IMG/VR virus record: IMGVR_UViG_3300032829_000008
Span: 1 to 64,000 of that record
Length of the DNA: 64,000 nt
Direction: 5' to 3' (one strand)
Source of the DNA: a virus
Part shown: in pieces, positions 28,021 through 52,204 of the stretch
How the letters are laid out: each line of letters starts with the position of its first letter
Position numbering within the stretch: position 1 is the first letter of the stretch
The notes under the pieces: generated by a model
What the model was told of the DNA's origin: nothing
What the model saw: only the letters and a program-made list of their open reading frames with translations
Database searches by the model: none
Translations under genes and position numbers: made by a program

Positions 28021-28946
28021 AGCTCGCAATCAAGTTCTGGGAGTTCATCCGCGAGCGCGAGGCCATCCGCCTGCGCCGCGCCGCCGGTCAGCCCGCGCCG
28101 TGGACGGAGGATAAGATCCTCCGCGCGTACAAGTTCACCAACGTCAAGCGCGAGCATGATCGCACCAGCGTTGCGCTCAAGGCGATATACGATCAGCACG
28201 TGTTGCGGGCCAGCGACAGAGTGGTGTGGCTCAACTGCGCGCTGTATAGGCTGTTCGGCACCGCGGAAATGGCTGCAGCTCTGGGCTGGGTCAGGGCGTG
28301 GGGTGACGAGTCACACCGCAGGTCGCAAGTGCTCAGGTTGGCAGCCACACGCCTGGCCACGGGGCAGCGAGTGTTCACTGGCGCGTACATTGTTCCTAAC
28401 TGCGGTCGCACACGCCCCAAGCATGAGGTGGTGTGTAGTATTGTGGATGGAGTATGGAAGGCAGCACCAGAGCTGTGTGACCGTGCCATGGACCGTTGGG
28501 AACTGGCGGTAGGCGTGCTCACGCAGCTGTGGGGCATCGGCAGCTTCATCGCCAAAGAGATCGTCCTGGATTACGTCATGGCCACCGGCTGGCGTCCCAG
28601 CGACTGGCAGACCTGGACGCCCATTGGTCCCGGAGCGCGGCGCGGTGCCATGCGGGTGCTGGACGGTAAGCTGATCCATCCACACGGTTTGAGCGAGCAC
28701 TACGCGCTGAAGGTGTGCCGCGAGTTGTACACGCAGCGTCGTGATCAGTGGGAGGACTGGTGGTCCACTGCGAATCACGCCGCGGTGTTCAGCGACGAGG
28801 TGCGACGTAGTCGGAACTACAACCAACTGCCACCCCACAGCCACCTGGACCTGACCGACATCCAATTCCAGCTGTGCGAGTTCGACAAGTACCAGCGCGC
28901 CCTGCGCGGCGAGGGCCGACCTCGCAGCCGGTTTACACCGACGTAA
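28017..28946 (+). CDS. Thymine hypermodification protein (HMUDK_hel / aGPT-Pplase type)
   Basis: 309 residues. The N-terminus KFWEFIREREAIRLRRAAG, then PAPWTEDKILRAYKFTNVKR and EHDR, is the signature of the all-helical, glycosylase-related family linked to 5-hydroxymethyl-dU DNA kinases and alpha-glutamyl/putrescinyl thymine pyrophosphorylases of phages. The central region (about 165-190, LTQLWGIGSFIAKEIVLDYV) has a helix-hairpin-helix look. It should act on 5-hmU in DNA to make a bulky thymine derivative that resists restriction. Which of the two activities is not visible. Confidence 0.75.
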   Translation: MKLAIKFWEFIREREAIRLRRAAGQPAPWTEDKILRAYKFTNVKREHDRTSVALKAIYDQHVLRASDRVVWLNCALYRLFGTAEMAAALGWVRAWGDESHRRSQVLRLAATRLATGQRVFTGAYIVPNCGRTRPKHEVVCSIVDGVWKAAPELCDRAMDRWELAVGVLTQLWGIGSFIAKEIVLDYVMATGWRPSDWQTWTPIGPGARRGAMRVLDGKLIHPHGLSEHYALKVCRELYTQRRDQWEDWWSTANHAAVFSDEVRRSRNYNQLPPHSHLDLTDIQFQLCEFDKYQRALRGEGRPRSRFTPT

Positions 28947-29014
28947 ACGAGCGTGCACACCCGCTCGCCAAGTGACCGGAAGGACATTTCCCTTGCGTTG
29001 GCCCGCGGGGTGCA
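28931..29014 (+). promoter_or_regulatory. sigma-54-like promoter A with upstream dyad
   Basis: Upstream sites GTTTAC (28931-28936) and GTAAAC (28943-28948) form a perfect inverted repeat with a 6-base spacer; the second overlaps the upstream stop codon. The core TGGCCCGCGGGGTGCA (28999-29014) has GG-N10-GC. Site centres lie 67 and 55 bp before the GG. The predicted start is 29025, three bases before ATG 29028. Confidence 0.7.
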
Positions 29015-29027
29015 CTACGTTTGGGGC

Positions 29028-30128
29028 ATGACGAAGCAGCCTCCCGCCCTCCCCGTTATCGCGCCGGACGAGTATCTGTTCCCGACCGTGCAGCAGCGCG
29101 CCGACCTGCTGGACTGGATGCAGTACCGCCGCACGGTGTACCTGTGGCCCGACAGCAGCATGGGGCACGTGGCCATCAGCGAGCGCCTGAACAACTACAC
29201 GGTGGAGCATGCCACCAAGCGCCCGAGCGCCGAATTCGCGCAGAAGGTGCTGCACCCTCAGACGTACCCCGCGGGGAGCGGGTGCCGTGGGAGGCGCTAC
29301 TACTGGGTGTACGATACGGACTACCCGTGCAACGGTTGCCCGGACTGCCACAATTGGTGCGCGGGGTTCCACATCGGCGCATTCGTGTGGGCTGCCGCCG
29401 TTGGCGGCGAGCATCGCGAGATTGCCGGTGCCGTTGCCGCCTACCAGTGCCTGGCCGCGGTGGGCGCCGTGTTTGCCCGCCTGCAGGAGTGTCTGGCTCG
29501 CATTGGGCGGTTCTTCGAGCGCGCGGAGCAGCGCTGGGAGGAGCTGCGCAAGGGCTGCCTCTACCGCGTGCAGGGACGCCGCGGCAATGCCAAAAACCAC
29601 AACGGCGCGGTGGGCGAGTGCTGCTGGATTGGGCAGGACGATTGGGGGCGGCCCCGCGCGGGGCTGCGCTTCCCGGGCCAGGAGAAGCTGGCGTACTTCG
29701 GTACCGGCAGCCTTGTCCGCGTTCCGACTCCGCCGCACGTGCTGGCGCAGCAGGAGCTGGATGCTCGCGAGCGCGCCGCTGCCAAGTTGGCGCAGCAGGC
29801 GGCCAAGGAGAAACTCGCAGCAGCGCCCCGCTACTCCGGTGGGCGCGATGGCACCGCGTACGTACTGCGCGGCGAGCACCGCGGTCAGTTCGGGAAGGTG
29901 TTCTGGATTGGTGAGGACAAGCGCCGCGGTGGCGTGCGGCTGGGCATTCGCCCGGGCGTGGTGAAGGGTACCAGAGGTGCCGGCAAGCGTCAGTCCAACG
30001 TGGAGCCCATTTGGGCCAACGCGGCCGATTGCTGCGACCAGAATGATGAGGTGGGCATGGTGGCGTGGGACGCCCTGCAGCGCGGCGATGAGGCCGCGCT
30101 GAACGAGGTGCTGGAGGCCAGAGTCTAA
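29028..30128 (+). CDS. KOW-repeat and Cys-cluster protein, unassigned
   Basis: 366 residues from ATG 29028, 14 bases after promoter core A; an in-frame GTG at 28953 is disfavoured. A Cys cluster CNGCPDCHNWC lies at about 100-110. Two KOW/SH3-like repeats follow (GCLYRVQGRRGNAK, about 183; GTAYVLRGEHRGQFGKV, about 283) linked by a charged Ala/Lys helix. The layout suggests nucleic-acid or ribosome contact, but no known family fits. Confidence 0.68.
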   Translation: MTKQPPALPVIAPDEYLFPTVQQRADLLDWMQYRRTVYLWPDSSMGHVAISERLNNYTVEHATKRPSAEFAQKVLHPQTYPAGSGCRGRRYYWVYDTDYPCNGCPDCHNWCAGFHIGAFVWAAAVGGEHREIAGAVAAYQCLAAVGAVFARLQECLARIGRFFERAEQRWEELRKGCLYRVQGRRGNAKNHNGAVGECCWIGQDDWGRPRAGLRFPGQEKLAYFGTGSLVRVPTPPHVLAQQELDARERAAAKLAQQAAKEKLAAAPRYSGGRDGTAYVLRGEHRGQFGKVFWIGEDKRRGGVRLGIRPGVVKGTRGAGKRQSNVEPIWANAADCCDQNDEVGMVAWDALQRGDEAALNEVLEARV

Positions 30129-30168
30129 CGCGCTCGGGTCGGGTGGCCCGGCGCATGAAAGGAGCAGT

Positions 30169-30687
30169 ATGGTGATGACAGCACAGCAGAACTACAGTCG
30201 GCGCGAGGGCATCAAGGCCCAGGCGGCAGCTCGCCGCGCCAAGAAGGAGGGCCCCGTGGCCAAGGAGCTGATGGCCGCTGCTTGGGCGGCCCTGGTGAAG
30301 ATGGTGGCCGACGATGGCTTGGACGATCAGCCAGCGCACGAGTTGTGGGACGTGGTGCCCTGGTGCGGCAAGCTACTGGCCCTGCCCCGTGACCCGGCCA
30401 TGGCCGACGACTGCCACATGGAGTGGTCCGCGGAGGGCTGGCTGCTGGTGGAGGGGGCCGCACCCGTGCGCTGCCACGACGAGCAGTGGTGCCTGTGGTG
30501 GGAGCGGGTGTGCCGCACCGCGGCCCGCTACGGCGTGGACGTGCGCGACAAGGTGCCGCCCGAGGGTGCCCTACTGGCCTGGGAAAAGGGCCGCAGCGGC
30601 CTGTGGTACGCGCTCAACCAGCTGGAGGACCAGCTGGGGCTGCCGCACAAGGTGCGGCAGTGGTCCGACATCAAGTGGGACGACTGA
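30169..30687 (+). CDS. Early protein, unassigned
   Basis: 172 residues with a good AAAGGAG before ATG 30169. Helical N-terminus, then a Trp/Cys-rich middle (WVVPWCGKLL-like, DEQWCLWWERVC). No motif. Its stop codon lies inside a long perfect hairpin (30686-30722). Confidence 0.62.
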   Translation: MVMTAQQNYSRREGIKAQAAARRAKKEGPVAKELMAAAWAALVKMVADDGLDDQPAHELWDVVPWCGKLLALPRDPAMADDCHMEWSAEGWLLVEGAAPVRCHDEQWCLWWERVCRTAARYGVDVRDKVPPEGALLAWEKGRSGLWYALNQLEDQLGLPHKVRQWSDIKWDD

Positions 30688-30722
30688 TAACGGGCGGCCA
30701 CACGGTGTGGCCGCCCGTTATC
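30686..30722 (+). terminator. Long perfect terminator-like hairpin
   Basis: A 17-bp perfect stem, GATAACGGGCGGCCACA pairing with TGTGGCCGCCCGTTATC, with loop CGG. It overlaps the stop of the upstream gene. Its outer bases GATAAC and GTTATC resemble the upstream promoter sites, and GTTATC (30717-30722) is 44 bp from promoter core H, so the region may both end one transcript and control the next. Confidence 0.68.
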
Positions 30723-30777
30723 ACTCCGGAAGCAAGTCGGCCAAATCATGTGGACTGAAGTCGGCACGCCGGTAGCA
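30717..30777 (+). promoter_or_regulatory. sigma-54-like promoter H
   Basis: Core CGGCACGCCGGTAGCA (30762-30777) with GG-N10-GC; the GTTATC site centres 44 bp upstream, as in promoters C and K. The predicted start, 30788, is one base before a 5'-end hairpin. It lies between a terminator-like hairpin and the gene at 30850, exactly where a promoter is needed. Confidence 0.65.
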
Positions 30778-30788
30778 ATAAACCCCTT

Positions 30789-30810
30789 GCACGAGTCAGG
30801 TGGCTCGTGC
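30789..30810 (+). other. 5'-end stem-loop of the predicted mRNA
   Basis: Perfect 7-bp stem GCACGAG/CTCGTGC with loop TCAGGTGG. It begins one base after the start predicted for promoter H, the place where 5'-stem-loops protect mRNA. Confidence 0.6.
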
Positions 30811-30849
30811 TAACAACCCTAGACGATACCCAATGGAAGGAAGCAGACC

Positions 30850-31371
30850 ATGGCAGTAGTCAGCAAGCGCACGTTCGGGCTGCACGGCCCACTCACCTAC
30901 GACCAGCTCAACCAGCTGAGCACCCTGGAGCTCATCCAGCTGCACAACGCCAAGAGCGAGAAGCAGATCAAGGTGTTCCACACCAAGGCCAAGGGCATGA
31001 ACAAGGTGTGGGAGCTGTATGCCGCCGAAGAGGTGGTCGAGAACAATCCCCCCGCCGAGACCGCCGATGGTGGCGCGAACGGCATCGAAACGACAACGGA
31101 GGCAAGTGACATGGCGAAGAAGACGAAGGCACCCAAGGCACCCAAGGCGAAGAAGGCTGGCGGTGGCACCCGCATCCCGGCGGACGCGACCATCAAGGTC
31201 CTGGCCAAGGAGAACCCTTACAAGAAGGGCACCAAGGCGTACGCCACGTTCGAGCTGTTCGGCAAGAGCAAGACGGTGGCCGAGTTCCGCGAGAAGGCGA
31301 GCGACAAGGATCGCTTCGACCCGGGGTACATCAAGTACTCCAGCCGCGACGGCTATATCAAGATCGGGTAA
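30850..31371 (+). CDS. Lys-rich-linker DNA-binding-like protein
   Basis: 173 residues. N-terminal helical domain (LTYDQLNQLSTLELIQLHN), a Lys/Pro/Ala linker (MAKKTKAPKAPKAKKAGGG, about 90-108) and a C-terminal domain (IKVLAKENPYKKGTKAYATF, VAEFREKASDK) like one in many bacterial and phage small proteins. The basic linker suggests DNA binding. Own transcript predicted from promoter H; its stop sits in a hairpin. Confidence 0.65.
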   Translation: MAVVSKRTFGLHGPLTYDQLNQLSTLELIQLHNAKSEKQIKVFHTKAKGMNKVWELYAAEEVVENNPPAETADGGANGIETTTEASDMAKKTKAPKAPKAKKAGGGTRIPADATIKVLAKENPYKKGTKAYATFELFGKSKTVAEFREKASDKDRFDPGYIKYSSRDGYIKIG

Positions 31372-31460
31372 CTGGGTCGCCAGGCGACCCAGTAGGGCAG
31401 GCCGACCTCGGCCGACCTTAGGCGCCTCCGCGGGTGGAGCGGGGCGCCTGCCCTGCGAGT
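31371..31460 (+). other. Structured intergenic region with terminator-like hairpin
   Basis: An 11-bp stem ACTGGGTCGCC/GGCGACCCAGT (31371-31393, nearly no loop) overlaps the stop codon. A second long-range stem pairs GGGCAGGC (31395-31402) with GCCTGCCC (31446-31453), with direct repeat GGCCGACCT inside. Likely terminator followed by folded RNA. A weak GG-N10-GC element (31537-31550) lies further on, without upstream GTTAAC sites. Confidence 0.5.
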
Positions 31461-31561
31461 AGGCACGCAGCACACGGCCACGAGCACCTTCAGTGGTGAA
31501 CCGCGCAGCGAACCCTGGGGCGCGGGGTGGTGTCTTGGCTGCGTGCCTGCTCGGAGGGCAC

Positions 31562-32386
31562 GTGCAAACCATCTTCGAGTTCGGCGACGCTAAGCTGGCC
31601 GCCGTGGACCTGGACCCGTTGTACGTGGCCGCGGTGCGCATGCCGTGGGGTCACGTGGAGCGCTGCAGGTTCACGCTGGCCGAGGTCGCGTTCGACCTGG
31701 CCGGCAAGGCAGCGGAGGTGGTGGAACGGTGTGCCTCCGGTATGCCGTTCTGGGACTCCATGCGCGCCGCCGCGGCGGACACCAAGCGCGGCGCACCGCG
31801 CCGCTACTTCCGTGGGCCCAAGTGCATGGACGCGTTGGAGGTCATGCGCGAGCTGTACCCCGATGCGCCCGAGGCCCTGGCCGCGCTGGCCGGCACGTTC
31901 GCGCACGCCGAGGAGGTGGTATGCGGCAGCTGGCCGCTGTGGGGCCCCACCGCCGCGTTCAAGATCGCCGACATGGCCGAGCGGGTGTGCCAAGTGCCCG
32001 TGGACTTCGGCGCCGTCGGCGAGACGGAGATCTGCAGCAACGCGCAGGTGCGCAAGGGTTGGGACAAGGCCCGGGACGTGTTGGCAGCCGCAGGCGACGC
32101 CCGCGCGCAGGACCTGGCGGCCAGTCTGCGCCAGCACATCTGGTGCACCAAGGCACCACCGCGGTGGGACCGCGAGTTGGGGCCACAGGAGTGGGAGACG
32201 CTCCTATGCTACTACAGCCACGACGACGAGCACAATCATCACTTGCCCGGCATGGACCGACTCGGCATCGCCGAGGAGCTGTACGATCATGGCGACGTGG
32301 CCGCGGAGCTGCTGGGACACTTGCCCTGGGCGACCGAGGCGGAGATGTACGAATGGCTGGACGCCAAGCATAGGAGAACCAAATGA
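31562..32386 (+). CDS. Helical protein, candidate base-modification partner
   Basis: 274 residues from GTG 31562, chosen because GGAGGG lies just upstream; GTG 31493 is in frame but has no ribosome site. All-helical, with PWGPTAAFKIADMAERV-like core (SWPLWGPTAAFKIADM, about 142) and VPVDFG, reminiscent of phage amino-acid:DNA transferase-type families. Near the P-loop kinase and thymidylate synthase homologue. The transferase idea is a guess from pattern and context. Confidence 0.5.
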   Translation: MQTIFEFGDAKLAAVDLDPLYVAAVRMPWGHVERCRFTLAEVAFDLAGKAAEVVERCASGMPFWDSMRAAAADTKRGAPRRYFRGPKCMDALEVMRELYPDAPEALAALAGTFAHAEEVVCGSWPLWGPTAAFKIADMAERVCQVPVDFGAVGETEICSNAQVRKGWDKARDVLAAAGDARAQDLAASLRQHIWCTKAPPRWDRELGPQEWETLLCYYSHDDEHNHHLPGMDRLGIAEELYDHGDVAAELLGHLPWATEAEMYEWLDAKHRRTK

Positions 32387-32589
32387 AGAGCAGGCACGAG
32401 TTTGTAGTAGTCAACCAGGATGGTAAGCGTGTGCAGTGGCTGCTGGAGTTCGAAAAGGACGGCGTCAACTTCACGTTGAGCCACCAGGGAGGTCAAGCAG
32501 TCAGCGCTTGGCTGCCGCCCGCCACCGCCGAGGACCTGCGCGAGCTGTTGGCGATGTACCAGAATAGTCGCAAGCGGAGCGGCGCGTGA
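32383..32589 (+). CDS. Small protein, unassigned
   Basis: 68 residues from ATG 32383 (ATGA). Beta strands then a helix (AEDLRELLAMYQNS). Coupled to the P-loop kinase gene by a 4-base overlap. Confidence 0.55.
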   Translation: MKSRHEFVVVNQDGKRVQWLLEFEKDGVNFTLSHQGGQAVSAWLPPATAEDLRELLAMYQNSRKRSGA

Positions 32590-33188
32590 GCACGCTGCTG
32601 CACATCATCGGGGCCGGTGCCACCGGCAAGTCCACCCTCACGCGCGGTCTGCTGGGGGAAGGTGCCGTGGACGGCAACGCCTCCATCAGCGAGGCAGTAC
32701 CACGCGCCAAGTACGGCGCCTCGCGGGACTTGTGTAGGTACGTCGTCGGCAATCTGAAGAACGGCACGGATAGCGTGAGTGAAATGGTGACTGCGGCGGC
32801 GATCGCCAACTGGCTGTTGGGATTGCACAGGACCAGTCTGGTGATCGTGGATGGCGTCCGCAGCAGCGCCAAGTGGTGCGTGGACTGGGCGCACTCCCCG
32901 GAGTGCAGAGCGACGCACCTGGCGTACGCGTACCTGGACCTGTCTCTCGACGAGACGCTGGAGCGCCTGCGCGCGCGTCGCCGCGGCAACGGCGAGAGCG
33001 ACGAGCTGAGCGAGAAGACTGTGGCCAACGTCCGCGCGTTTCAGCGCCGCGCCCACGGCGTGTGGCGGAAGGTGGTGCAGCGTGCCGACCACCCGGGCAA
33101 GCCCACGGCACTGCTGGTGCTGCGCGAGGGCACCGCCGCGGATTGGTTGGAGCGGGCCGAGCAGTTCTTAACGCACCGCGTTGCGTAG
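32586..33188 (+). CDS. P-loop nucleotide/DNA kinase
   Basis: 200 residues from GTG 32586. Walker A is GAGATGKST (residues 9-17). SLVIVDGVRSSAKW (about 85) holds a Walker B-like strand, and LDETLERLRARRRGNGESDE is a lid-like basic helix. In this neighbourhood it could phosphorylate 5-hydroxymethyl-dUMP or 5-hmU in DNA, as in known phage thymine hypermodification. A general dNMP kinase is the alternative. Confidence 0.72.
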   Translation: MSTLLHIIGAGATGKSTLTRGLLGEGAVDGNASISEAVPRAKYGASRDLCRYVVGNLKNGTDSVSEMVTAAAIANWLLGLHRTSLVIVDGVRSSAKWCVDWAHSPECRATHLAYAYLDLSLDETLERLRARRRGNGESDELSEKTVANVRAFQRRAHGVWRKVVQRADHPGKPTALLVLREGTAADWLERAEQFLTHRVA

Positions 33189-33253
33189 AAAGCTTGCTTC
33201 ACTTGGCCGCGTAGTTGTAAGGTGGCCGGCACATTTAATGAAGGGTGGCAGCC

Positions 33254-33475
33254 ATGTACAAGCCTGTGCCGTGGGAAGGGTTGCGCAAGCTCTTGCGTTA
33301 CTCCTTTGCCGACCTGGGGAGTTACGATGATCTAACGGTGGAGGAGCAGGCTGCGCTGACCCGCGAGGAGTTCGAGGTGCTGGCGGCTTGGGCCAAGCGG
33401 GATGAACCGATGGCCGCCGAGTTCCGATGTGAACACTGCGGCACCAACCACGTGGCCGAGCTGAGGGTCGCGTGA
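33254..33475 (+). CDS. Small zinc-ribbon-tailed protein
   Basis: 73 residues from ATG 33254. Acidic helical body and a C-terminal FRCEHCGTNHVAELR, a single CxxC with a nearby His. A 65-base gap precedes it with a near-match to the promoter core (TTGGCCGCGTAGTTGT) that has no upstream sites. Confidence 0.55.
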   Translation: MYKPVPWEGLRKLLRYSFADLGSYDDLTVEEQAALTREEFEVLAAWAKRDEPMAAEFRCEHCGTNHVAELRVA

Positions 33476-34470
33476 GGGTCCTGCATGTCCGCAACGTGCA
33501 CCGCGCGATACCCGCAGCGCTGGCTCACTTAGTGGAGCACGGCGAGCGGCGCGAGAGTCGCAATGGCCCGGTGCTGCAGCCTCCGCATCCCGTCACCACC
33601 GTGTACAGCCACCCATTGGAGCGGGTGGAGGCGTGGGTCGCGCGCAACAGCAACCCGTACCTGCACCTGTTCGAGAGCGCGTGGATGCTGGCGGGGCGCA
33701 ACGACGTGGCGAGCCTGGTCCGCTACGCCAAGCGGTTCGCCGAATTTAGCGACGACGGTGAGACGTTCAACGCGCCGTACGGTTACCGCTGGCGTCACGC
33801 GACCACGCAAAATGTCGATCAACTCGCAGTGATCGCAGATCAGCTGCGCGCCAATCCCAACACGCGCCAGGCGGTGCTGCAGATTTGGACCGTCAAGCAC
33901 GACCTGCTGGCGGTCACCAAGGACCACGCCTGCAACCTGACGGCGACGTTCCAGGTGGGCAGCGACGGTCGGCTGCACATGTGCGTGTTCTGCCGGTCCA
34001 ACGACATCGTCTGGGGCTGCTACGGCGCCAACGCGGTGCATTTCAGCTATCTGCTGGAGTATGTGGCCGCCCGGGCGGGTATCCCGGTGGGGACGTACAC
34101 GCAGATCAGTGTCAACTGGCACGGATACCTGTCCACGGTGCAGCCCCTGGTGGCAGCTGGGCTGCACCAGCACGGCGAGCACCCCAGTTCGTACGAGACT
34201 GGCGCCTGGACGCCGTATCCCATCACCAGGGGCGGATTCGACGCCCACTGGTTCGACGTGGACCTTGCGGTCGCCACCAGTGACCAAGGTCGCGCGGTGG
34301 AGGCCAGCTATCACCACGCCTGGTTTCGCGAGGTGCTGCTGCCGGTCATGCGCAGCCACGACGCCTACAAGGCGGGTGATCGATTCGGCGCGCTGCACCA
34401 CATATCAGACTGCGCTGCCACGGACTGGCAGCAGGCGTGCCGGTGGTGGCTCGCCAGAAAGGCAAAGTGA
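33472..34470 (+). CDS. Thymidylate synthase homologue, likely dUMP hydroxymethyltransferase
   Basis: 332 residues from GTG 33472. Thymidylate synthase fold: NAPYGYRWRH-type substrate loop (about 100-109), KDHACNLTATFQ with catalytic Cys154, then CRSNDIVWGCYGANAVHFSY with Arg175, Asp178 and Asn187, and VNWHGY (His217, Tyr219). Asn187 fits a uracil rather than cytosine substrate. Phage homologues that make 5-hmdUMP feed thymine hypermodification. The neighbouring genes support that, but plain dTMP synthesis cannot be excluded. Confidence 0.8.
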   Translation: MRVLHVRNVHRAIPAALAHLVEHGERRESRNGPVLQPPHPVTTVYSHPLERVEAWVARNSNPYLHLFESAWMLAGRNDVASLVRYAKRFAEFSDDGETFNAPYGYRWRHATTQNVDQLAVIADQLRANPNTRQAVLQIWTVKHDLLAVTKDHACNLTATFQVGSDGRLHMCVFCRSNDIVWGCYGANAVHFSYLLEYVAARAGIPVGTYTQISVNWHGYLSTVQPLVAAGLHQHGEHPSSYETGAWTPYPITRGGFDAHWFDVDLAVATSDQGRAVEASYHHAWFREVLLPVMRSHDAYKAGDRFGALHHISDCAATDWQQACRWWLARKAK

Positions 34471-41540: not shown

Positions 41541-41909
41541 GTGGGCGGCGATCGACGGTCCATCAGCGTCACAGGCGAGGCGCACCGCGCGCTGCAGGAG
41601 CTGGCGAAGCAGCGCAACAGGAGCATGTCCTCCATTGTCGAGGACTGGATCCGCGGCATGACAGGTCTTGCTCCTGCCGGTCACCGCGCGGTACCAGACT
41701 TGCGCGTCGAGGTGCGTGTTCTGGAGGACACCAAGCAAAGGATCGAAGAGCGCATTGAGCAGCGCCGCGCGGCCATCCGCGCGGCGCTGGACCAGCGCAC
41801 GGCCGAGATAAAGATCCGAAACAGGGAGGAGGCCGAGCGCCGTGCGGAGGCTAACCCATGTCGCGATCCGAAGTGCCATCGCACGGCGCTGCACGAGGCG
41901 CACAAGTGA
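41541..41909 (+). CDS. RHH-type regulator with coiled coil
   Basis: 122 residues from GTG 41541. SISVTGEAHRALQELAKQRN and SMSSIVEDWIRGM match a ribbon-helix-helix DNA-binding domain (about 7-42). Then a long charged coiled coil and the C-terminal NPCRDPKCHRTALHEAHK. Probably a phage regulator. Two bases separate it from the previous stop. Confidence 0.65.
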   Translation: MGGDRRSISVTGEAHRALQELAKQRNRSMSSIVEDWIRGMTGLAPAGHRAVPDLRVEVRVLEDTKQRIEERIEQRRAAIRAALDQRTAEIKIRNREEAERRAEANPCRDPKCHRTALHEAHK

Positions 41910-46048: not shown

Positions 46049-46284
46049 TGGCCACGCTGCAGTGGCGCAAGCTGCGCAAGCTGCTGCTGGACGCCCTGCT
46101 GGATGTGGAGCTGCAGATCACCCACGAACTCGAGCTGGACGACGTCAACACGTTGCTGTCGTTTGTCGCCGAGCACTGGGGCCACGATGCACCCCGGCAG
46201 CTGGAGTACCACGATCTGGAGATGCGCATGCGCAAGCTGCAGGCCGAGCACGAGAAGCTCAAGGAGTACTGCCGTGACCGATAA
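46021..46284 (+). CDS. Small acidic helical protein, unassigned
   Basis: 87 residues from ATG 46021 (GAGG upstream), overlapping the membrane gene by 28 bases. Helices with RKLRKLLLDALLDVELQITH and a C-terminal coiled coil LEMRMRKLQAEHEKLKEY. Might be a spanin-like or lysis partner, but there is no signal sequence. Confidence 0.55.
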   Translation: MSDTLEPQLMATLQWRKLRKLLLDALLDVELQITHELELDDVNTLLSFVAEHWGHDAPRQLEYHDLEMRMRKLQAEHEKLKEYCRDR

Positions 46285-46813
46285 GCTGGTGAGGGAGGCC
46301 GCCGCTGGACGGGGCTTATGGATCGGCATCCCAGTACCGGTGGCGCAGTGGCGCGAGGAGAATCCGCTCCACCCACTGCTGCCGTGGCTGGGTGAGCGCG
46401 CGCACGTCACATTGCTACATATGGGCAAGCACCCGCAGACGGCTGCCATGCGCGTGGCGACGGCGCTGGCAGCAGCGCGCGCCGCGGCGGAGTGCTTGCC
46501 GGTGAAGTGCGCCGTCACCGGGCTGGGCTGGTTCAGCCGGCGCGCCGGACCGCCCACGCGCGTGGCCCTGGTCAACAGTCCATGGCTCACCAACCACCTG
46601 CGGCCCCGCGTATACCAGCGAGCCTCGCAGGAGTTGGCCCTGGACGACTGGTTCGGGTTTATCCCGCACGTGACGCTGACCGAACCAGCGAACACCTCGT
46701 GGGAGGATCTGGAAGACACCATGGGAGGGTTCCTCGGGTGGCGCGCGGAGATCATCCAGGTGCACTGCGGCGAGGTCACAGTGGACGTGGGCCTACCGGA
46801 GATGCCGTTTTGA
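46274..46813 (+). CDS. 2H phosphoesterase (LigT-like)
   Basis: 179 residues from GTG 46274, overlapping the previous gene by 11 bases. Two HxTL motifs, HVTLLHMG (His44) and HVTLTEPA (His132), are the paired catalytic motifs of 2H phosphoesterases. Phage members include Acb1, which cuts cyclic nucleotide signals of CBASS immunity. Others act on RNA ends. Which applies here cannot be read from sequence. Confidence 0.78.
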   Translation: MTDKLVREAAAGRGLWIGIPVPVAQWREENPLHPLLPWLGERAHVTLLHMGKHPQTAAMRVATALAAARAAAECLPVKCAVTGLGWFSRRAGPPTRVALVNSPWLTNHLRPRVYQRASQELALDDWFGFIPHVTLTEPANTSWEDLEDTMGGFLGWRAEIIQVHCGEVTVDVGLPEMPF

Positions 46814-47073
46814 GGCCCCGAAAACCCAGCTATGCTGTGATCGTGGCCAAGCTGCAGGCAGCAGAGAAGGAGATCCAGCAGCTGCGCCGCGCCGGAGGTG
46901 CCGATGTGCTGGCCGTGGCGCAAGCGCTGCTCCAGATCCTGGAGGCGGAGGAGGGTTACATGGCCCCGGAGCATCAGGCAACGGTGCGCACCGCGCGCGC
47001 CGTGCTGGACAACGTCACGCGACCTACGACGCCAAGAAGCGCGCCTCGCCGCACTGGGATTCGTACCCGCTAG
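46810..47073 (+). CDS. Helical protein, unassigned
   Basis: 87 residues from TTG 46810 overlapping the previous stop (TTGA); GTG 46837 is an alternative. Coiled-coil-like helix KLQAAEKEIQQLRRAGGADV, then a longer helix and an Arg/Thr-rich end. No known domain. Confidence 0.5.
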   Translation: MRPRKPSYAVIVAKLQAAEKEIQQLRRAGGADVLAVAQALLQILEAEEGYMAPEHQATVRTARAVLDNVTRPTTPRSAPRRTGIRTR

Positions 47074-47106
47074 GCAGTTTGTAACCCCCACTAAAGGAGC
47101 AATGTC

Positions 47107-47319
47107 ATGAAGAAGAAACTGTCTCTCCGTAAAGAGTCGATCCAGAAGCTTGGGAGCAGGGCGCTCTCTCAGGTGGTTGGTGGAGTCGACCAAACCGACA
47201 CCTGCCTCGGCACTCAGTGCCTGTGTTACCCGACGTACGGGCCGGACTGCCACACCGTCGGTTTCACGCAGTGCCTGTGCTCGGCTGGTCACACCAACTG
47301 CGGCTGCGTGGGCGGGTGA
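47107..47319 (+). CDS. Lanthipeptide-like RiPP precursor peptide
   Basis: 70 residues with a clear AAAGGAG before ATG 47107. Leader MKKKLSLRKESIQKLGSRAL, SQVVGG (Gly25-Gly26) fits class I lanthipeptide and GG-leader natural-product precursors. The core (27-70) has 8 Cys (33, 38, 40, 48, 56, 58, 65, 67) and 8 Thr/Ser, with TQCLC twice. No LanB/LanC-like enzyme is in the window, so host enzymes would be needed. A free toxin or signal peptide is the alternative. Confidence 0.75.
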   Translation: MKKKLSLRKESIQKLGSRALSQVVGGVDQTDTCLGTQCLCYPTYGPDCHTVGFTQCLCSAGHTNCGCVGG

Positions 47320-47483
47320 CGACAGTCCGCATCCAAGGTCCGGGCTGGGAGGTGGTGACCGAGGTCGCCTCGGTGTACGGCGATGCCGCTGGCGTGGCCC
47401 GCCGGCTGCGCGCCGAGGGCCTGGCAGCGCAGAAGCGCGGCGCGGAGGTGCTGGTCAATGCGAACGCCGAGCGCCGCGCGTGA
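47316..47483 (+). CDS. Small protein coupled to the RiPP precursor
   Basis: 55 residues from GTG 47316 (GTGA overlap with the precursor stop). Strand, then helices (GDAAGVARRLRAEGLAAQKRG). Coupled translation with the precursor hints at a linked role such as immunity or processing, but nothing in the sequence shows this. Confidence 0.5.
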   Translation: MTTVRIQGPGWEVVTEVASVYGDAAGVARRLRAEGLAAQKRGAEVLVNANAERRA

Positions 47484-47766
47484 TCCGCGGTGCCTGTGGC
47501 CGAACCTGCGCCCCGGCGACTGGGTGTGGTTCAACGGCACGCGCCGGCTGTTGGTGGACCTGGGGCGCCGCGTGGTCACCTTCTACAAGATCGGGCACAG
47601 CTGGACCGATCCCAACCCGCGCGCCACGTACGACGTGTACGCGGTGAAGCGGGCGGGTGGTCTGCGCCTGGCGCGCCACGGCGGGATCGCCAGCAGGGCG
47701 AGGGCGAGGTGGGCAATCGAATGGGTGAAGCCATCCGTTAACGGCGGCAGTGTAAACGGACGTTAA
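47458..47766 (+). CDS. Basic SH3-like protein, unassigned
   Basis: 102 residues from ATG 47458 (CGGAGG upstream), starting inside the previous gene. LRPGDWVWFNGTRRLLVDLG suggests a small barrel; basic end RARWAIEWVKPSVNGG. Its stop codon lies in a GTTAAC motif of promoter B. Confidence 0.55.
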   Translation: MRTPSAARDPRCLWPNLRPGDWVWFNGTRRLLVDLGRRVVTFYKIGHSWTDPNPRATYDVYAVKRAGGLRLARHGGIASRARARWAIEWVKPSVNGGSVNGR

Positions 47767-47832
47767 CGCACGCCCGACGCGTCTAGGAAGAACACGCTCT
47801 TAGATGCGCTTGTGTTTGGCCCCCGGGTTGCT
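47737..47832 (+). promoter_or_regulatory. sigma-54-like promoter B with upstream sites
   Basis: Core TGGCCCCCGGGTTGCT (47817-47832) is a near-ideal sigma-54 sequence. Upstream: GTTAAC (47737-47742, inside palindrome CCGTTAACGG), GTAAAC (47752-47757) and GTTAAC (47762-47767), centred 79, 64 and 54 bp before the GG. Predicted start 47843, two bases before ATG 47845. Confidence 0.75.
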
Positions 47833-47844
47833 TATCATTGGGGC

Positions 47845-48144
47845 ATGACGAACAGCAGCAAGAACCCCAAGTACCTCACACTGGTGGCCGACGGCGCGGA
47901 GATGGTCCTCGCGGAGGGCGCCGATGTCGAGAAGTTCCTCAATGCCCAGGCGCGCGGTCCCGCCGGCAGCTGCCCGGGGCCGGTGATGACCCGCAAGTTC
48001 CAGACCAACATGCCGCGCACGTACGGCGCGCTGCTGGAGCAGCTGGCCGGCGAGCTGGGCACCGAGAGCGAGGCGGCCACGCTGCGCGCGGTGGTGCAGG
48101 CGGGCCTGCGGGCGCTGGGCTGCGACCTTGACGACGAGGAGTAA
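47845..48144 (+). CDS. RHH-like regulator, leaderless start
   Basis: 99 residues from ATG 47845, 13 bases after promoter core B and without a ribosome site. C-terminal half KFQTNMPRTYGALLEQLAGE and ATLRAVVQAGLRALG looks like a ribbon-helix-helix domain. A phage transcription regulator is likely; it could control the promoter family it stands behind. Confidence 0.62.
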   Translation: MTNSSKNPKYLTLVADGAEMVLAEGADVEKFLNAQARGPAGSCPGPVMTRKFQTNMPRTYGALLEQLAGELGTESEAATLRAVVQAGLRALGCDLDDEE

Positions 48145-48181
48145 TGAGGACGGTGCTGGGGCGGAGGCGATGCAGAAGTAA

Positions 48182-48246
48182 GCCACCGGGCGGAGCTGGT
48201 GCCCGCCGGATGATAGCCCGCCGGGGTTCGATTCCCCGCGGTGGCA
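48182..48246 (+). tRNA. tRNA-like element, degenerate (anticodon GAT)
   Basis: Acceptor GCCACCG (48182-48188) pairs with CGGTGGC (48239-48245); T arm CGGGG-TTCGATT-CCCCG (48222-48238) is perfect. The D-type hairpin GGCGG/CCGCC has loop AGCTGGTGC. The anticodon arm GCCGG-ATGATAG-CCCGC has one mismatch and gives GAT (Ile). Total is 65 bases: no variable loop and about 8 short. It may be a shortened tRNA, a decayed one, or an RNA mimic. Confidence 0.5.
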
Positions 48247-48259
48247 CTGGAGGTTACCA

Positions 48260-48490
48260 ATGGACGACAAGCAGAAGGGCGTGCGCCGCCGCACCGAGAT
48301 GTTCTTGAAGAACGAGCGTGGGAAGCCACACGAGTTCGACCGCCTGCACGCGGTGCTGTGCCTCACCCACGGTTGGGCCAACAACGAAGAGGACCTGCAG
48401 GCGAGCATCGCGCTGCGCGACATCGTGGACACCGAGTTGATCGCCGAGCGGTGCGACGAGCTGCTGATGAAGGGGCGCTCTCATGGATAG
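48260..48490 (+). CDS. Small helical protein, unassigned
   Basis: 76 residues with GGAGG before ATG 48260, right after the tRNA-like element. Helical, charged (RRRTEMFLKNERGKPHEFDR). No motif seen. Confidence 0.55.
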   Translation: MDDKQKGVRRRTEMFLKNERGKPHEFDRLHAVLCLTHGWANNEEDLQASIALRDIVDTELIAERCDELLMKGRSHG

Positions 48491-48665
48491 CGCGCCCCGG
48501 TGCAAGCACTGCGGCGCTCTGCTCAAGCGCCACAAGTTTGCCGGCGATCTGCCTGGTGTGGGTGGCGACGGCAAGTCGCGCGAGTACGGCTACCTGGGTG
48601 ATAACACCTTTTGCAGCAAGGAGCACGGCTACCAGTACGGGCTGACCGAGGTGCGCCGTGGATAG
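48483..48665 (+). CDS. Small zinc-ribbon protein
   Basis: 60 residues. CKHCGALLKRHKFAGDLPG and NTFCSKEHGYQ give CxxC and CxxxH pairs of a small zinc finger. Overlapped at both ends by neighbours. Confidence 0.55.
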   Translation: MDSAPRCKHCGALLKRHKFAGDLPGVGGDGKSREYGYLGDNTFCSKEHGYQYGLTEVRRG

Positions 48666-48912
48666 CCACATCGTCGAGCTGACCGCCAGGGCCTTCGCGC
48701 CTGGCCTCGTGCGGGACCAGTGGGTGCGCCTGGCTCGATTCCACGACCTGTGCGTCGCCGCGCAGGATTGGCACGCGGTGCGCCTGGTGGGTGTTGCGCT
48801 GCGTCCCCACATGAACGGGTGGGTCCCCACGCTGGTGGAGGTGCAGGCGGCGATCAGGGCCATGGCGGTGCTGGCGGCGCGGGACGTGTACGAGCCGGAT
48901 AGGGCACCGTGA
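48658..48912 (+). CDS. Helical protein, unassigned
   Basis: 84 residues from GTG 48658. Helical throughout (FHDLCVAAQDWHAVRLVG, VEVQAAIRAMAVLAARDV). No recognisable domain. It is followed by promoter C. Confidence 0.52.
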   Translation: MDSHIVELTARAFAPGLVRDQWVRLARFHDLCVAAQDWHAVRLVGVALRPHMNGWVPTLVEVQAAIRAMAVLAARDVYEPDRAP

Positions 48913-48925
48913 GGTACCATCACCG

Positions 48926-49010
48926 GTTTACACCCGACCGCGTACGGGTGTTAACACCGCGAGGCGAAGTACCCGGAACCAGGCAGAAGAGGGGTGGCAC
49001 CGGGGGTGCA
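48926..49010 (+). promoter_or_regulatory. sigma-54-like promoter C with upstream sites
   Basis: Core TGGCACCGGGGGTGCA (48995-49010). Upstream GTTTAC (48926-48931) and GTTAAC (48950-48955, inside the palindrome GGTGTTAACACC) are centred 68 and 44 bp before the GG. The two form a near-perfect hairpin-like inverted repeat. Predicted start 49021, two bases before ATG 49023. Confidence 0.7.
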
Positions 49011-49022
49011 GTACCTCCAGAC

Positions 49023-49331
49023 ATGACGAACAACATCAAGGTCACGGTGACGCGCATCATCGGCACCAAGGTCACGGTGTACACGGCGTGGGAGCCGTAC
49101 GCAGGCCACAGCACGTTCACGCACATCGACGGTGTCAGGTATGGCCAGGTCGGTACGGCGCCGCTCCCGGCGCAGCTGAACAAGCTGCCCGCCATGAGCG
49201 AGGAGCGCTACGTGCAGGTCAAGGCGTGGATCAATGCACAGTATCAGCGCGCCTACGCCATCATCAAGGTCGCGCATCCGGAGGCAGTGGACGGTCGGCC
49301 CGACATGGGACAGCTGGAGGTGGTGTCGTGA
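49023..49331 (+). CDS. Small protein with leaderless start, unassigned
   Basis: 102 residues from ATG 49023, 13 bases after promoter core C. Beta-rich start (IKVTVTRIIGTKVTVYTAWE), helical end. GTG 48909 is in frame but would read through the promoter. It is coupled to the receiver-domain gene. Confidence 0.6.
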   Translation: MTNNIKVTVTRIIGTKVTVYTAWEPYAGHSTFTHIDGVRYGQVGTAPLPAQLNKLPAMSEERYVQVKAWINAQYQRAYAIIKVAHPEAVDGRPDMGQLEVVS

Positions 49332-49669
49332 GGCTCTGCTACGTGGAGGACGATGCGGGTGTGGCGCGCAGCGTGATGCGCGCGCTGGCGCGCCTGCGCC
49401 CCGGGTGGGACGTGCGGCACTGCACCACGGTGCAGCAGGCCATCGAGGAGATGGCGACCTGCCCGGGCTGGTACCACGTGCTGTGCGACGTGGACCTCAA
49501 GGCGGGCGGCTGGGGTCTCGACCTGCTGGCGTGGGCCAGGGAGTACGAGCCGACCCTGGCGGCGCGGTTCGTGTTCCTCAGCAGCCAGGGGGCGGGGTAC
49601 GGCGTGCCCTACCTGGAGAAGCCCTGCAGCGCCGCGCAGGTGGTGGCCGCGCTGGAGGCGTTGCCGTGA
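49328..49669 (+). CDS. Stand-alone receiver (CheY-like) domain
   Basis: 113 residues from GTG 49328. Acid pocket VEDD (Glu7-Asp8-Asp9), phosphate acceptor in LCDVDLKAGGWGLDLL (Asp54), switch residue in FVFLSSQG (Ser85) and YLEKP (Lys98, Pro99). All receiver landmarks are present and there is no output domain. It could tap a host two-component system. It shares a transcript with the gene behind promoter C. Confidence 0.78.
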   Translation: MRLCYVEDDAGVARSVMRALARLRPGWDVRHCTTVQQAIEEMATCPGWYHVLCDVDLKAGGWGLDLLAWAREYEPTLAARFVFLSSQGAGYGVPYLEKPCSAAQVVAALEALP

Positions 49670-50088
49670 GGACCATCGAGGTGGTGTGCACGGGCGTGTG
49701 TCCCGTCAAGGGCAAGAAGTCGGCTATGCCGATCATGGTGGGCATCAGCGACGGCAAGCTCACCGAGGAGCGCTGGGTGTGGCCGGTGCAGGCGCACGTG
49801 GGCAGCGTGTACAGCGCCGCCGTGAACGACGAGGGCGCGGTGGGCAACGTGACGCGCAACCGGCTGCCGTTCCTGCGCAAGTGGGAGGACGCGGCGCAGG
49901 TGCTGGCGTGGGAGGCCGAGAGCAAGGCCACCGAGGCGCTGATCAGGGCCCGCAACCTGGCGGCCACCCAGGATGCGGCCAGCCCGCTGGCGGGGCTCGT
50001 GGCGCAGCTGTGCGAGGTGTATCACCGCGTGCCATACAGCCATCGCGCGGCGTGGCTAGTATGGCTGAATAGGGAGCTGGAGCGATGA
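49666..50088 (+). CDS. Helical protein downstream of receiver domain
   Basis: 140 residues from GTG 49666. Strand-rich first half with VCTGVCPVKGKKSAMPIMVG, helical second half ending in a conserved-looking VYHRVPYSHRAAWLVWLNREL. No domain recognised. Coupled to the receiver gene by 4 bases. Confidence 0.58.
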   Translation: MRTIEVVCTGVCPVKGKKSAMPIMVGISDGKLTEERWVWPVQAHVGSVYSAAVNDEGAVGNVTRNRLPFLRKWEDAAQVLAWEAESKATEALIRARNLAATQDAASPLAGLVAQLCEVYHRVPYSHRAAWLVWLNRELER

Positions 50089-50261
50089 GGAAGACCTTGA
50101 TCCTGCTAGTGTTGGGTGCCTGCGCACCGTCCTATTACCCCGTGCTGCCCAACCCCAACGGACCGGTGGTGATCCCGCCGCCCCCGCACTGCACGCGGAA
50201 CGATAAGCTGCAGGGCTGCGTGCCAACGCCCGCCGTTAACACCGATGTGCACCACGGTTAA
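50085..50261 (+). CDS. Small phage lipoprotein
   Basis: 58 residues from ATG 50085 (ATGA). MRKTLILLVLGAC is a lipoprotein signal with lipobox LGAC (Cys13). The mature part is Pro-rich (NPNGPVVIPPPPHC) with two more Cys. Might be an outer-membrane spanin or a superinfection-exclusion lipoprotein. Its stop lies in a GTTAAC site of promoter K. Confidence 0.65.
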   Translation: MRKTLILLVLGACAPSYYPVLPNPNGPVVIPPPPHCTRNDKLQGCVPTPAVNTDVHHG

Positions 50262-50319
50262 CACTACGAGGAGAACTGTGCGGAAGATCATCGACGTCCT
50301 GCTCGGCACGCTCCAAGCA
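50235..50319 (+). promoter_or_regulatory. sigma-54-like promoter K with upstream sites
   Basis: Core CGGCACGCTCCAAGCA (50304-50319). Upstream GTTAAC at 50235-50240 and 50257-50262 are centred 68 and 46 bp before the GG, close to promoter C. Predicted start 50330, two bases before ATG 50332. A ribosome site (GAGGAG at 50268) for GTG 50278 offers a competing reading. Confidence 0.5.
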
Positions 50320-50331
50320 TTGCTCGGGAGC

Positions 50332-50571
50332 ATGAAGCGCAGCCAACCCCGGGACAGCAAGGGTCGTTTCACCAAGGTCGCCACCACCGCGGCGCCCAGC
50401 TACATCTGCTGGGCGGTCGGCATGGACCGGGTGGTGGGCCTGGAGACGCCAGTGGCGGTGCACGCCACCCCGGTCGTCGCGAAGACGCGGCGCCCGCTGC
50501 CCTCGGGGGCGTGGAGCAGCTTCTTCATTTGGCTCGCGGTCATGGTGGCCGCATGCTACAAGGCTTTCTAG
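50332..50571 (+). CDS. Small membrane-anchored protein, unassigned
   Basis: 79 residues from ATG 50332, 13 bases after promoter core K; a longer form from GTG 50278 adds 18 residues behind a GAGGAG. Starts MKRSQPRDSKGRFTK and ends in a membrane segment (SSFFIWLAVMVAACYKAF). Function unknown. Confidence 0.5.
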   Translation: MKRSQPRDSKGRFTKVATTAAPSYICWAVGMDRVVGLETPVAVHATPVVAKTRRPLPSGAWSSFFIWLAVMVAACYKAF

Positions 50572-50582
50572 GGAGGCGAACG

Positions 50583-50726
50583 GTGACCAAGTCACGGCGC
50601 GACCCCGTGCCCAACCCCATCCTCGGCCTGCACTGCGCTGGTTGCCACGAATTTGTGGACTCGCTGCAGCAGGTGGCACCGGGCCGATGGCGCTGCCCCA
50701 AATGCGCAGCCAAGGAGCGGACGTGA
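50583..50726 (+). CDS. Small zinc-ribbon protein
   Basis: 47 residues from GTG 50583 with GGAGG upstream. LHCAGCHEFVDSLQQVAPG and RWRCPKCAAKERT form a CxxC-CxxC zinc ribbon. Coupled to the GIY-YIG gene by GTGA. Confidence 0.58.
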   Translation: MTKSRRDPVPNPILGLHCAGCHEFVDSLQQVAPGRWRCPKCAAKERT

Positions 50727-51103
50727 AAGAGGGCACCATCTACTTGCTGCACTTCAAGCAGCCCTTCGGCCACGCGCGGCACTATCTGGGCTGGACCACG
50801 GACCTGATGGGGCGCATGGCGGACCACTGGGAGGGTGCTGGGGCGCGGCTGCTGCACCACGTGCGCAACGCGGGCATCGAGTGGGTGCTGGTGGCCACCT
50901 GGCGCGGCCCCCGCAGGGAGGAGCGCCGCATGAAGAACCGGGGCAGCAGCGTGCGCCACTGCCCCATTTGCCGCGGTGAGTACCTGCGTAAACGGAAATT
51001 GGCGAGGGCGTTAACGGCCGTTATCACCGTACCGATAACCGAGCAGGAACACGTGGTGGTAGGCGTGGCACCGGGGATGCAGCCGACTACACCGAACTGC
51101 TGA
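50723..51103 (+). CDS. GIY-YIG-like nuclease domain protein
   Basis: 126 residues from GTG 50723. GTIYLLHFKQPFGHARHYLG then WTTDLMGRMADHWEG matches the GIY-YIG fold start, with Arg and Glu (about 33 and 70) as expected. Basic end after CPICRGEYLRKRKLARA. Could be a homing-type or resolving nuclease. The promoter F core lies in its last codons. Confidence 0.65.
   Translation: MKEGTIYLLHFKQPFGHARHYLGWTTDLMGRMADHWEGAGARLLHHVRNAGIEWVLVATWRGPRREERRMKNRGSSVRHCPICRGEYLRKRKLARALTAVITVPITEQEHVVVGVAPGMQPTTPNC
51010..51081 (+). promoter_or_regulatory. sigma-54-like promoter F with upstream sites
   Basis: Core TGGCACCGGGGATGCA (51066-51081). GTTAAC (51010-51015) is centred 55 bp upstream; ATTGGC (50998-51003) sits where a second half-site is expected. 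Predicted start 51092; the next ATG with a frame is 51111. It overlaps the 3' end of the GIY-YIG gene. Confidence 0.6.
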
Positions 51104-51110
51104 TGGCGCT

Positions 51111-51251
51111 ATGAAGATCCCACCGCCGAGCGATGGCCGCGATGTTGCCAAATGGCAGGCCGACATGGCCAGGCTGGATGCCGATCCGCGCACTGCCAAT
51201 GGCGCGAACCGGCCCCTGTGGTTGGTGCGCCGGGTGTTGGAGGGGAAGTAA
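51111..51251 (+). CDS. Small protein behind promoter F
   Basis: 46 residues, ATG 51111 to TAA 51251: MKIPPPSDGRDVAKWQADMA, then RLDADPRTANGANR and WLVRRVLEGK. Helical. No motif. Its position between promoter F and promoter D supports it. Confidence 0.5.
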   Translation: MKIPPPSDGRDVAKWQADMARLDADPRTANGANRPLWLVRRVLEGK

Positions 51252-51257
51252 CCCAGA

Positions 51258-51341
51258 GTTGGCGGCGGTGTTAACAGACGGCCACACTGTGATCACAACC
51301 GCGCGGAAGCACGGAGTGTGAGTGTTGGCACCGCGAGTGCA
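51258..51341 (+). promoter_or_regulatory. sigma-54-like promoter D with upstream sites
   Basis: Core TGGCACCGCGAGTGCA (51326-51341). GTTAAC (51270-51275) is centred 55 bp and the degenerate GTTGGC (51258-51263) 67 bp before the GG, as in promoters A and E. Predicted start 51352, two bases before ATG 51354. Confidence 0.7.
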
Positions 51342-51353
51342 ATACCCAAGAGC

Positions 51354-51533
51354 ATGACGAACATGGTGATCCAGTCGAGCGAAGTGGTTGTTGGCGATAC
51401 GCTGAACTACGGCAGCGAGCGATTGACGGTGGTGGCAATCACCAAGCGCACCGCCAAGCAGGTGGTGTGGACGATGTCGGACGGCAGCAGCTGGACGCGC
51501 CGCGCGGTGATGCTCACGCCGGTGACCCGGTAG
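51354..51533 (+). CDS. Small beta-rich protein, leaderless start
   Basis: 59 residues from ATG 51354, 13 bases after promoter core D. TNMVIQSSEVVVGDTLNYGS then VVWTMSDGSSWTRRAVML suggests a small beta barrel. No ribosome site. Function unknown. Confidence 0.58.
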   Translation: MTNMVIQSSEVVVGDTLNYGSERLTVVAITKRTAKQVVWTMSDGSSWTRRAVMLTPVTR

Positions 51534-51576
51534 CGGCGGGTTGGGTGGCGGTGTAGGCTTAGCAAAGGGAGCAGAG

Positions 51577-52152
51577 ATGAGTGACCGGAAGCAGCACCGC
51601 AGGAGCCGGCCAAGTGGCAGGCGCGACTACAAGCGCTGGAAGAGGGCAGCACCGGGCCGGTGGTTGCGCTGGCGCGAGCTGGCCAAGTGGTTGGCCCCCG
51701 GCACGCCCTACAAGCTCTCCAGTAATCCGCCTGTGCGCGACGCACGCGGCGAGCACGTGGACGTGTTGGCAATGATTAGGAGACGCGCCATGACGGTAGT
51801 GATCGTCTCCAGCATCGGCTGCGGCGGGTGGACCAAGCGCGATACCATCCTGGAGGCCGGCTGCCAGCTGGCCAACCTGGCCGACCAGCAGGAGACCTAC
51901 CGCATCGGGCGCGCGGGCCTGGAGGCGAATCCCCTGTTCGGGCAGCACGGCGAGCGATTTTGGGTGGTGGCGCCCACGGTGCTGCTTGGGCACACCGCGG
52001 TCTCTCTCGCGTTGCCGCCCAAGTGGCGAACGCGGTGGCAGGTGGCCACGCTGGGCGTGGAGGGCCTGGTGCTGGCGCGGAACGCCTCCATGGGGTGGTG
52101 GCCGCTGGTTAACGACCCCGTAAACGAGAGTGCACGGTCGACGCAGAAGTAG
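51577..52152 (+). CDS. Basic N-terminus plus membrane-type protein
   Basis: 191 residues from ATG 51577 (AAAGGGAG upstream). The first 60 residues are Arg/Lys-rich; from about 72 it has a signal-like stretch (MTVVIVSSIGCGG) and hydrophobic segments with RAGLEANPLFGQHGERFWVV, similar to small phage membrane proteins of the DUF5658 look. ATG 51791 with AGGAG upstream could give a shorter product, so two proteins are possible. Confidence 0.55.
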   Translation: MSDRKQHRRSRPSGRRDYKRWKRAAPGRWLRWRELAKWLAPGTPYKLSSNPPVRDARGEHVDVLAMIRRRAMTVVIVSSIGCGGWTKRDTILEAGCQLANLADQQETYRIGRAGLEANPLFGQHGERFWVVAPTVLLGHTAVSLALPPKWRTRWQVATLGVEGLVLARNASMGWWPLVNDPVNESARSTQK

Positions 52153-52191
52153 CCGAAATGGCTGTTCGAGCGGTTCGGCACGGGGATAGCA
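52108..52191 (+). promoter_or_regulatory. sigma-54-like promoter E with upstream sites
   Basis: Core CGGCACGGGGATAGCA (52176-52191). Upstream GTTAAC (52108-52113) and GTAAAC (52120-52125) are centred 67 and 55 bp before the GG, the same spacing as promoter A. Predicted start 52202, three bases before ATG 52205. Confidence 0.7.
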
Positions 52192-52204
52192 ATGGAGTAG
52201 TGGC

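Follow-up and report, generated by a model that had tools for sequence, protein, structure and literature searches.

The use of sigma-54 by phages is called rare in a published account (PMC5053324), which also states, citing Ceyssens et al. 2008, that phage YuA depends strictly on host sigma-54 for its development. The YuA record annotates three -24/-12 promoters, all in the late structural region, and YuA (Mesyanzhinovviridae) is a relative of the phage studied here, a 66,578-bp IMG/VR virus record (IMGVR_UViG_3300032829_000008) of which positions 1 to 64,000 were analyzed (hereafter the window; GC 65%). In both phages, promoter-like elements recur at comparable early and accessory locations. 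In the window these are eight composite elements, each with a GG-N10-GC core of the sigma-54 kind preceded by one or more short half-sites. We find these elements to be real, organized and more distinctive than was described in a first-pass annotation of the sequence, and it is plausible that they are sigma-54 promoters. That annotation regarded sigma-54 control of a phage accessory block as unusual, a view that holds only in part, given the reported dependence of the related YuA.

The YuA elements differ in sequence, the five early repeats reading CTTTACTTCTTCGG..CACTATA; matches to CTTTACTTCTTCGG occur in the window at chance level only, and no core with a fixed ATG that lacks a Shine-Dalgarno sequence was found in YuA. 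The SAS/ESAS elements of Cluster K mycobacteriophages also occur in many copies at the starts of small genes, about half of them with upstream inverted repeats (PMC3203893), but their consensus is GGGATAGGAGCCC, without a -24/-12 core, and it has no match in the window at up to two mismatches; the resemblance is one of placement. The '-10 next to ORF' leaderless promoters of Deinococcus-Thermus set a promoter element a short fixed distance from the ATG (PMC12340547), and there the element is a sigma-70-type -10 region instead of GG-N10-GC. Bacterial sigma-54 promoters share with the window elements GG-N10-GC, the TYGGCAC..GCA sequence and dyad sites located upstream, roughly -70 to -100 relative to the expected start. 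They differ in that the window elements keep a fixed GG-to-ATG distance of 27-28 nt and appear nearly leaderless, rarely have T two bases before the GC, and come from a phage in which no bacterial enhancer-binding protein (bEBP) was found. We know of no sigma-54 promoters that are coupled to the start codon.

All eight cores are present, their first G lying at 29000, 30763, 47818, 48996, 50305, 51067, 51327 and 52177, in each case one base later than first annotated. A composite scan for a GG-N10-GC core with at least 10 of 13 matches to YTGGCACGN4TTGCW and at least one upstream GTTAAC, GTAAAC, GTTTAC, GTTATC or GATAAC site returned precisely these eight, all on the plus strand, compared with a mean of 0.41 and a maximum of 2 in Markov-shuffled genomes (n = 100). 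When at least two upstream sites were required, seven were observed and none in 100 shuffles. The eight elements are non-random by the conjunction of core and upstream sites, and a chance origin, which the first-pass annotation had raised against its own proposal, is ruled out by the shuffled-sequence scan. Each element matches 10-11 of the 13 sigma-54 consensus positions, the first T of TTGC usually being absent. The 10-bp separation of GG and GC, itself a selection criterion in the window, holds in all eight, and the asymmetric TYGGCAC-N6-GCA profile is retained across elements.

The most distinctive features, a fixed distance from core to ATG and the absence of a Shine-Dalgarno sequence, were overlooked at first. 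Six elements have an ATG 27 or 28 nt past the GG (29028, 47845, 49023, 50332, 51354 and 52205), and five of these six starts lack a Shine-Dalgarno sequence, compared with 11 of 93 other genes (Fisher p = 3e-4). The start codon is ATG in all six, while GTG is used in 33 of the 93 other genes, and C stands at -1 of all six ATGs compared with 26 of 60 other ATG starts. Therefore, the six ATG-linked elements look like leaderless promoters. Gene starts were called with a simple gene finder, and several frames are still open upstream of the called start. The ATG at 50332 has a rival upstream GTG start at 50278 with the Shine-Dalgarno sequence GAGGAG. The elements at 30763 and 51067 are outside the fixed-ATG layout.

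Upstream of the cores, GTNNAC-type half-sites number 21 in 8 x 70 bp, against about 3 expected from genome density, and 14 of the 20 GTTAAC, GTAAAC and GTTTAC sites of the genome sit there. These half-sites fall on one lattice with a step of about 11 bp, near -44, -55, -67 and -78 from the GG, and the elements at 29000, 50305 and 52177 each have sites at -44, -55 and -67 when GTGCAC is counted. Cross-element phasing gave 33 coincident pairs compared with a mean of 8.1 and a best period of about 11 bp, and none of 20,000 circular shifts scored as high. The helically phased layout is thus borne out more strongly than the first-pass annotation had claimed, whereas its two spacing classes (54-55 and 44-46 bp), although both spacings are present, are two positions of a single lattice. 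Arc dimers recognize subsites spaced by about 11 bp, and for this reason an Arc/CopG-like ribbon-helix-helix protein encoded next to the primase (41541-41909, plus strand; phrog_3431, Arc-like, E = 1.2e-4) is a candidate binder of the phased sites, offered as a lead rather than a result. Its RHH_1 match (E = 0.0019) is below cut-off, and its fold matches are non-significant yet mostly to ribbon-helix-helix proteins.

The same layout recurs in other phages. A search of IMG/VR with the pattern TYGGCACSN4RTGCANTAN9ATG, which places the ATG at +27, matched 22 unrelated contigs, compared with three, one of them already among the 22, when the ATG was moved by 6 nt (to +33). Further sites at 27 or 28 nt, not imposed by the pattern, occur in these contigs, giving four elements in total in contig L022 and three in L025. 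In 18 of 19 distinct viral elements, position +5, where the pattern leaves C or G free, is occupied by G, as in the sigma-54 sequence TGGCACG, and the open reading frames beginning at the matched ATGs have a median of 62 codons. Phage G001 (100 kb, 60% GC) has three cores (L010, G001:18760; L015, G001:67361; L011, G001:99284), all with 10 bp between GG and GC and with the ATG at +27 precisely, the second and third being found without imposing the ATG. Two of these have in common about 95 bp of upstream sequence that includes a TTTAC..GTAAA-type dyad, and the G001 upstream sites are unlike those of the window. Contig L027 carries the same GTGTGGCTACAC site as the third G001 element, and in L045 (G008) two divergent element pairs were seen, each about 230 bp apart (23804-/24038+ and 33668-/33892+). 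The first pattern match, L006, was rejected as chance, lying inside a coding region of 44% GC. A pattern with a pyrimidine two bases before the GC matched 40 contigs, of which about 14 outside the palindromic set look by eye to be of the same class. Most of the 40 are palindromic TTGGCACGN4TTGCATTAGCAAG..ATGCCAA repeats, a different thing that was set apart. Tandem palindromic repeats of the form TTGGCAYN5TTGCATTAGCAAN4-5TGCCAA, likewise of a different class, occur in L061, L077, L085-L088 and L094; each arm of these tandem repeats is sigma-54-promoter-like, in both directions.

Among bacteria, the layout was found eight times in 284 Myxococcota genomes and once with a displaced ATG. In the Polyangia genome G022, which encodes sigma-54, it precedes a tandem pair of paralogous lipoprotein-like genes, of which the second was not imposed by the pattern, and sigma-54 is also encoded in the other five Myxococcota genomes with matches (six of six). 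The genes downstream are, by appearance, mostly exported proteins, lipoproteins or membrane proteins. A strict pattern ending in GCATGAC matched no bacterial genome. A looser bacterial pattern matched seven genomes, several of these matches lying in a non-coding or coding context that looks like chance, and a Lentisphaerae match is weakened because no sigma-54 was detected in its metagenome-assembled genome.

We consider recognition by a host sigma-54 holoenzyme with near-leaderless initiation to be the most likely reading of these sequences, and hold it with moderate confidence. The eight elements would be promoters of the sigma-54 (-24/-12) class, used by host RNA polymerase carrying sigma-54. 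In six of them the start codon lies 14-15 nt past the GC, so that transcription would be expected to begin at the ATG or no more than about 3 nt from it (placing a sigma-54 start some 12 nt past the GC puts it 2-3 nt ahead of the ATG), and these mRNAs would be leaderless or nearly so. The GTTWAC-type half-sites on their lattice of about 11 bp may be bound on one face of the DNA by a dimeric or oligomeric regulator that controls the set as a regulon. AAA+ activation, if required, would come from a host bEBP, while the ribbon-helix-helix protein of 41541-41909, or another phage protein, may repress or recruit instead. The sigma-54-like core named in the first-pass annotation is supported, short of proof, by the retained asymmetric profile, the G at +5 and the layout in sigma-54-encoding Myxococcota. 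The sequences themselves show the composite elements, their phasing, the fixed ATG distance, the missing Shine-Dalgarno sequences and the recurrence of core plus ATG in unrelated phages and some sigma-54-encoding Myxococcota; sigma-54 recognition, the transcript starts and the regulator are inferred.

However, several observations weigh against sigma-54. The consensus by itself is not enriched genome-wide: scored plainly over 13 positions, it gives 7 sites with 11 matches against 6.2 expected and 23 with 10 matches against 33.8 expected. Two bases before the GC, where the consensus has T, only a minority of the eight elements have T and most elements of the viral class have A, G or C, and a -10-like TA close to the start follows the core in most elements. 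No sigma-54 (RpoN) gene is encoded in the phage, nor is an AAA+ activator, PF00158 giving only a weak match to the primase P-loop. In contigs L025, L022 and L032 a Shine-Dalgarno sequence lies between core and ATG, and this counts against the reading because a start 12 nt after the GC would leave the motif untranscribed. The Myxococcota contrast of eight to one is small, with one genome providing three of the eight. Further, in the part of the literature searched, sigma-54 promoters of leaderless type do not form a recognized class, and none is described in phages.

A wider proposal, which we advance only tentatively and regard as rather doubtful, is that a sigma-54-type promoter class found across unrelated phages and ahead of the own genes of some Myxococcota, starting at the start codon, constitutes a portable core/translation-start cassette. 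Each phage would place a phased operator array of its own in front, to be read by a non-AAA+ protein that the phage encodes.

The main rival to host sigma-54 is a sigma-70-type promoter with a phage cofactor, because the YuA record annotates five repeats in comparable positions as 'putative sigma70 promoter requiring phage-encoded cofactor'. In these leaderless promoters the TA-N4 hexamer that precedes the ATG by 6-7 nt would be the -10, with TYGGCAC..GCA serving as an extended -10 or as a phage-cofactor site that replaces the -35, and with a class I activator bound at the phased sites, whose spacings of 11-12 and 22 bp are also compatible with such activators. T is found at +16 in six of the eight window elements and in all three G001 elements, in favor of this reading. 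However, few elements retain the final T of TANNNT, whereas GG and GC are invariant, a -35-like block at 17 bp is absent, and the YuA repeat itself is in the window at chance level only. We regard sigma-70 recognition as unlikely.

Less probable still is that the core is not a promoter but acts at the start codon as an operator or an RNA element, with the near-palindromic sequence TTGGCACG-N3-CGTGCAA, and is bound by a phage regulator or forms a translational hairpin. Some related elements are indeed nearly perfect dyads with a Shine-Dalgarno sequence behind them (L025, TTGGCACGCGACGTGCAA), a fixed ATG distance is compatible with translational control, and Cluster K SAS elements are located at starts (PMC3203893). 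In the window, by contrast, five of six starts have no Shine-Dalgarno sequence to occlude, and the dyad or hairpin fails because the inner pairs 3:11, 4:10 and 5:9 hold in only three, three and four of the eight elements, without compensation.

Two further explanations rank lowest. Extracytoplasmic function (ECF)-type promoters with GGAA near -22 as their -35 element are very improbable, for although six of the eight elements have GGAA or CGAAA starting at -21 to -23, an ECF-like -10 at 16-17 bp is absent, GGAA is not at that position in G001 or most other viral elements, and the conserved GCA and ATG spacing would go unexplained. Recent duplication of promoter-start cassettes, with sequence shared by descent and no common regulator, is hardly credible either: a 44-nt stretch does align across three elements and MTN/MTK protein starts recur, yet the conserved blocks are separated by unrelated sequence while the half-sites hold their 11-bp phase, and the same core and spacing are found in unrelated phages.

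Individually, the elements are laid out as follows, all features being on the plus strand except the inverted arms of element 2, which have no strand. Element 1 has GTTTAC (28931), GTAAAC (28943) and GTGCAC (28953) within 28931-28958, centered at -66.5, -54.5 and -44.5 from the GG, and the -24/-12-like core TTGGCCCGCGGGGTGCA (28998-29014), with GG at 29000. Its gene (29028-30128; 366 amino acids, no family) starts at an ATG 28 nt past the GG without a Shine-Dalgarno sequence. In element 2, inverted arms of 22 bp, 95% complementary with a 1-nt gap (30682-30726), include GATAAC/GTTATC sites and are possibly a terminator or operator; its core TCGGCACGCCGGTAGCA (30761-30777) is the leadered case, the next gene starting at 30850 with a Shine-Dalgarno sequence. 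Element 3 combines GTTAAC (47737), GTAAAC (47752) and GTTAAC (47762), spanning 47737-47767, with the core TTGGCCCCCGGGTTGCT (47816-47832) and a gene at 47845-48144 (ATG at +27, no Shine-Dalgarno sequence). Element 4 (half-sites 48926-48955, GTTTAC at 48926 and GTTAAC at 48950; core GTGGCACCGGGGGTGCA, 48994-49010) has the same arrangement before gene 49023-49331. The second gene behind it, at 49328-49669, encodes a receiver-domain protein of 113 amino acids (Pfam Response_reg, E = 5e-4), whose AlphaFold model matches the PhoB, FrzS and NtrC1 receivers (best E = 3e-4), with no sequence match in the PDB. The domain is stand-alone, has the acidic-pocket, phospho-Asp and Lys motifs, and is unusual phage cargo.

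In element 5, GTTAAC (50235), GTGCAC (50247) and GTTAAC (50257) occupy 50235-50262, followed by the core TCGGCACGCTCCAAGCA (50303-50319) and the ATG at 50332 (+27, no Shine-Dalgarno sequence). Element 6 has GTAAAC (50988), GTTAAC (51010) and GTTATC (51020) within 50988-51025; its core GTGGCACCGGGGATGCA (51065-51081) lies within the 3' end of gene 50723-51103, with no ATG at the fixed distance. The small product of that gene matches GIY-YIG weakly (E = 0.047). A sole GTTAAC (51270-51275) precedes the core of element 7, TTGGCACCGCGAGTGCA (51325-51341), and its gene 51354-51533 (ATG at +27, no Shine-Dalgarno sequence). Element 8 has GTTAAC (52108), GTAAAC (52120) and GTGCAC (52130), spanning 52108-52135, then the core TCGGCACGGGGATAGCA (52175-52191) and gene 52205-52687, with the ATG at +28 and GGAG about 10 nt ahead of it. 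The name 'phage accessory block' given in the first-pass annotation fits the 47.8-52.7 kb region well, but two of the elements are found about 17 kb from it, in a region of early genes.

All called genes of the window are on the plus strand, and the early genes include those for thymidylate synthase, DNA polymerase and dCMP deaminase. The primase is 48-50% identical to those of the Pseudomonas phages YuA (48%), PaMx11 and Ab18, of Rhizobium phages and of cyanophage Pam3, and further proteins match Pam3 families. Searches of IMG/VR with the terminase, DNA polymerase, primase and first element-driven gene yielded no close relatives, the primase finding two distant contigs only, neither with a comparable site, and the region 47.0-54.5 kb has no DNA similarity to known phages. 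Homologs of 5-hmdU DNA kinase (HMUDK) and, below cut-off, amino acid:DNA transferase (ADDT) are encoded at 28017-28946 and 31562-32386, and because of these thymidine in the phage DNA is probably hypermodified. An Rfam scan gave no match. A tRNA-like sequence at 48181-48247, with a 7-bp acceptor (GCCACCG/CGGTGGC), a D-arm-like part and a TTCGATT T-arm, has a shrunken anticodon arm and was called by neither ARAGORN nor Rfam. A long non-coding stretch ahead of the terminase genes (54785-55428) carries the inverted repeat GTGCTTTACTTGCACCGGGTAAAGCAC and is possibly a late control region.

If host sigma-54 does read these elements, a phage family would plug small accessory genes into the activator-dependent polymerase of its host, with no leader or ribosome-binding site needed. 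The rule of TYGGCAC-N6-GCA with an ATG at +27 or +28 is searchable and predicts 5' ends within a few bases, and it may point to the hosts of phages to which none has been assigned.

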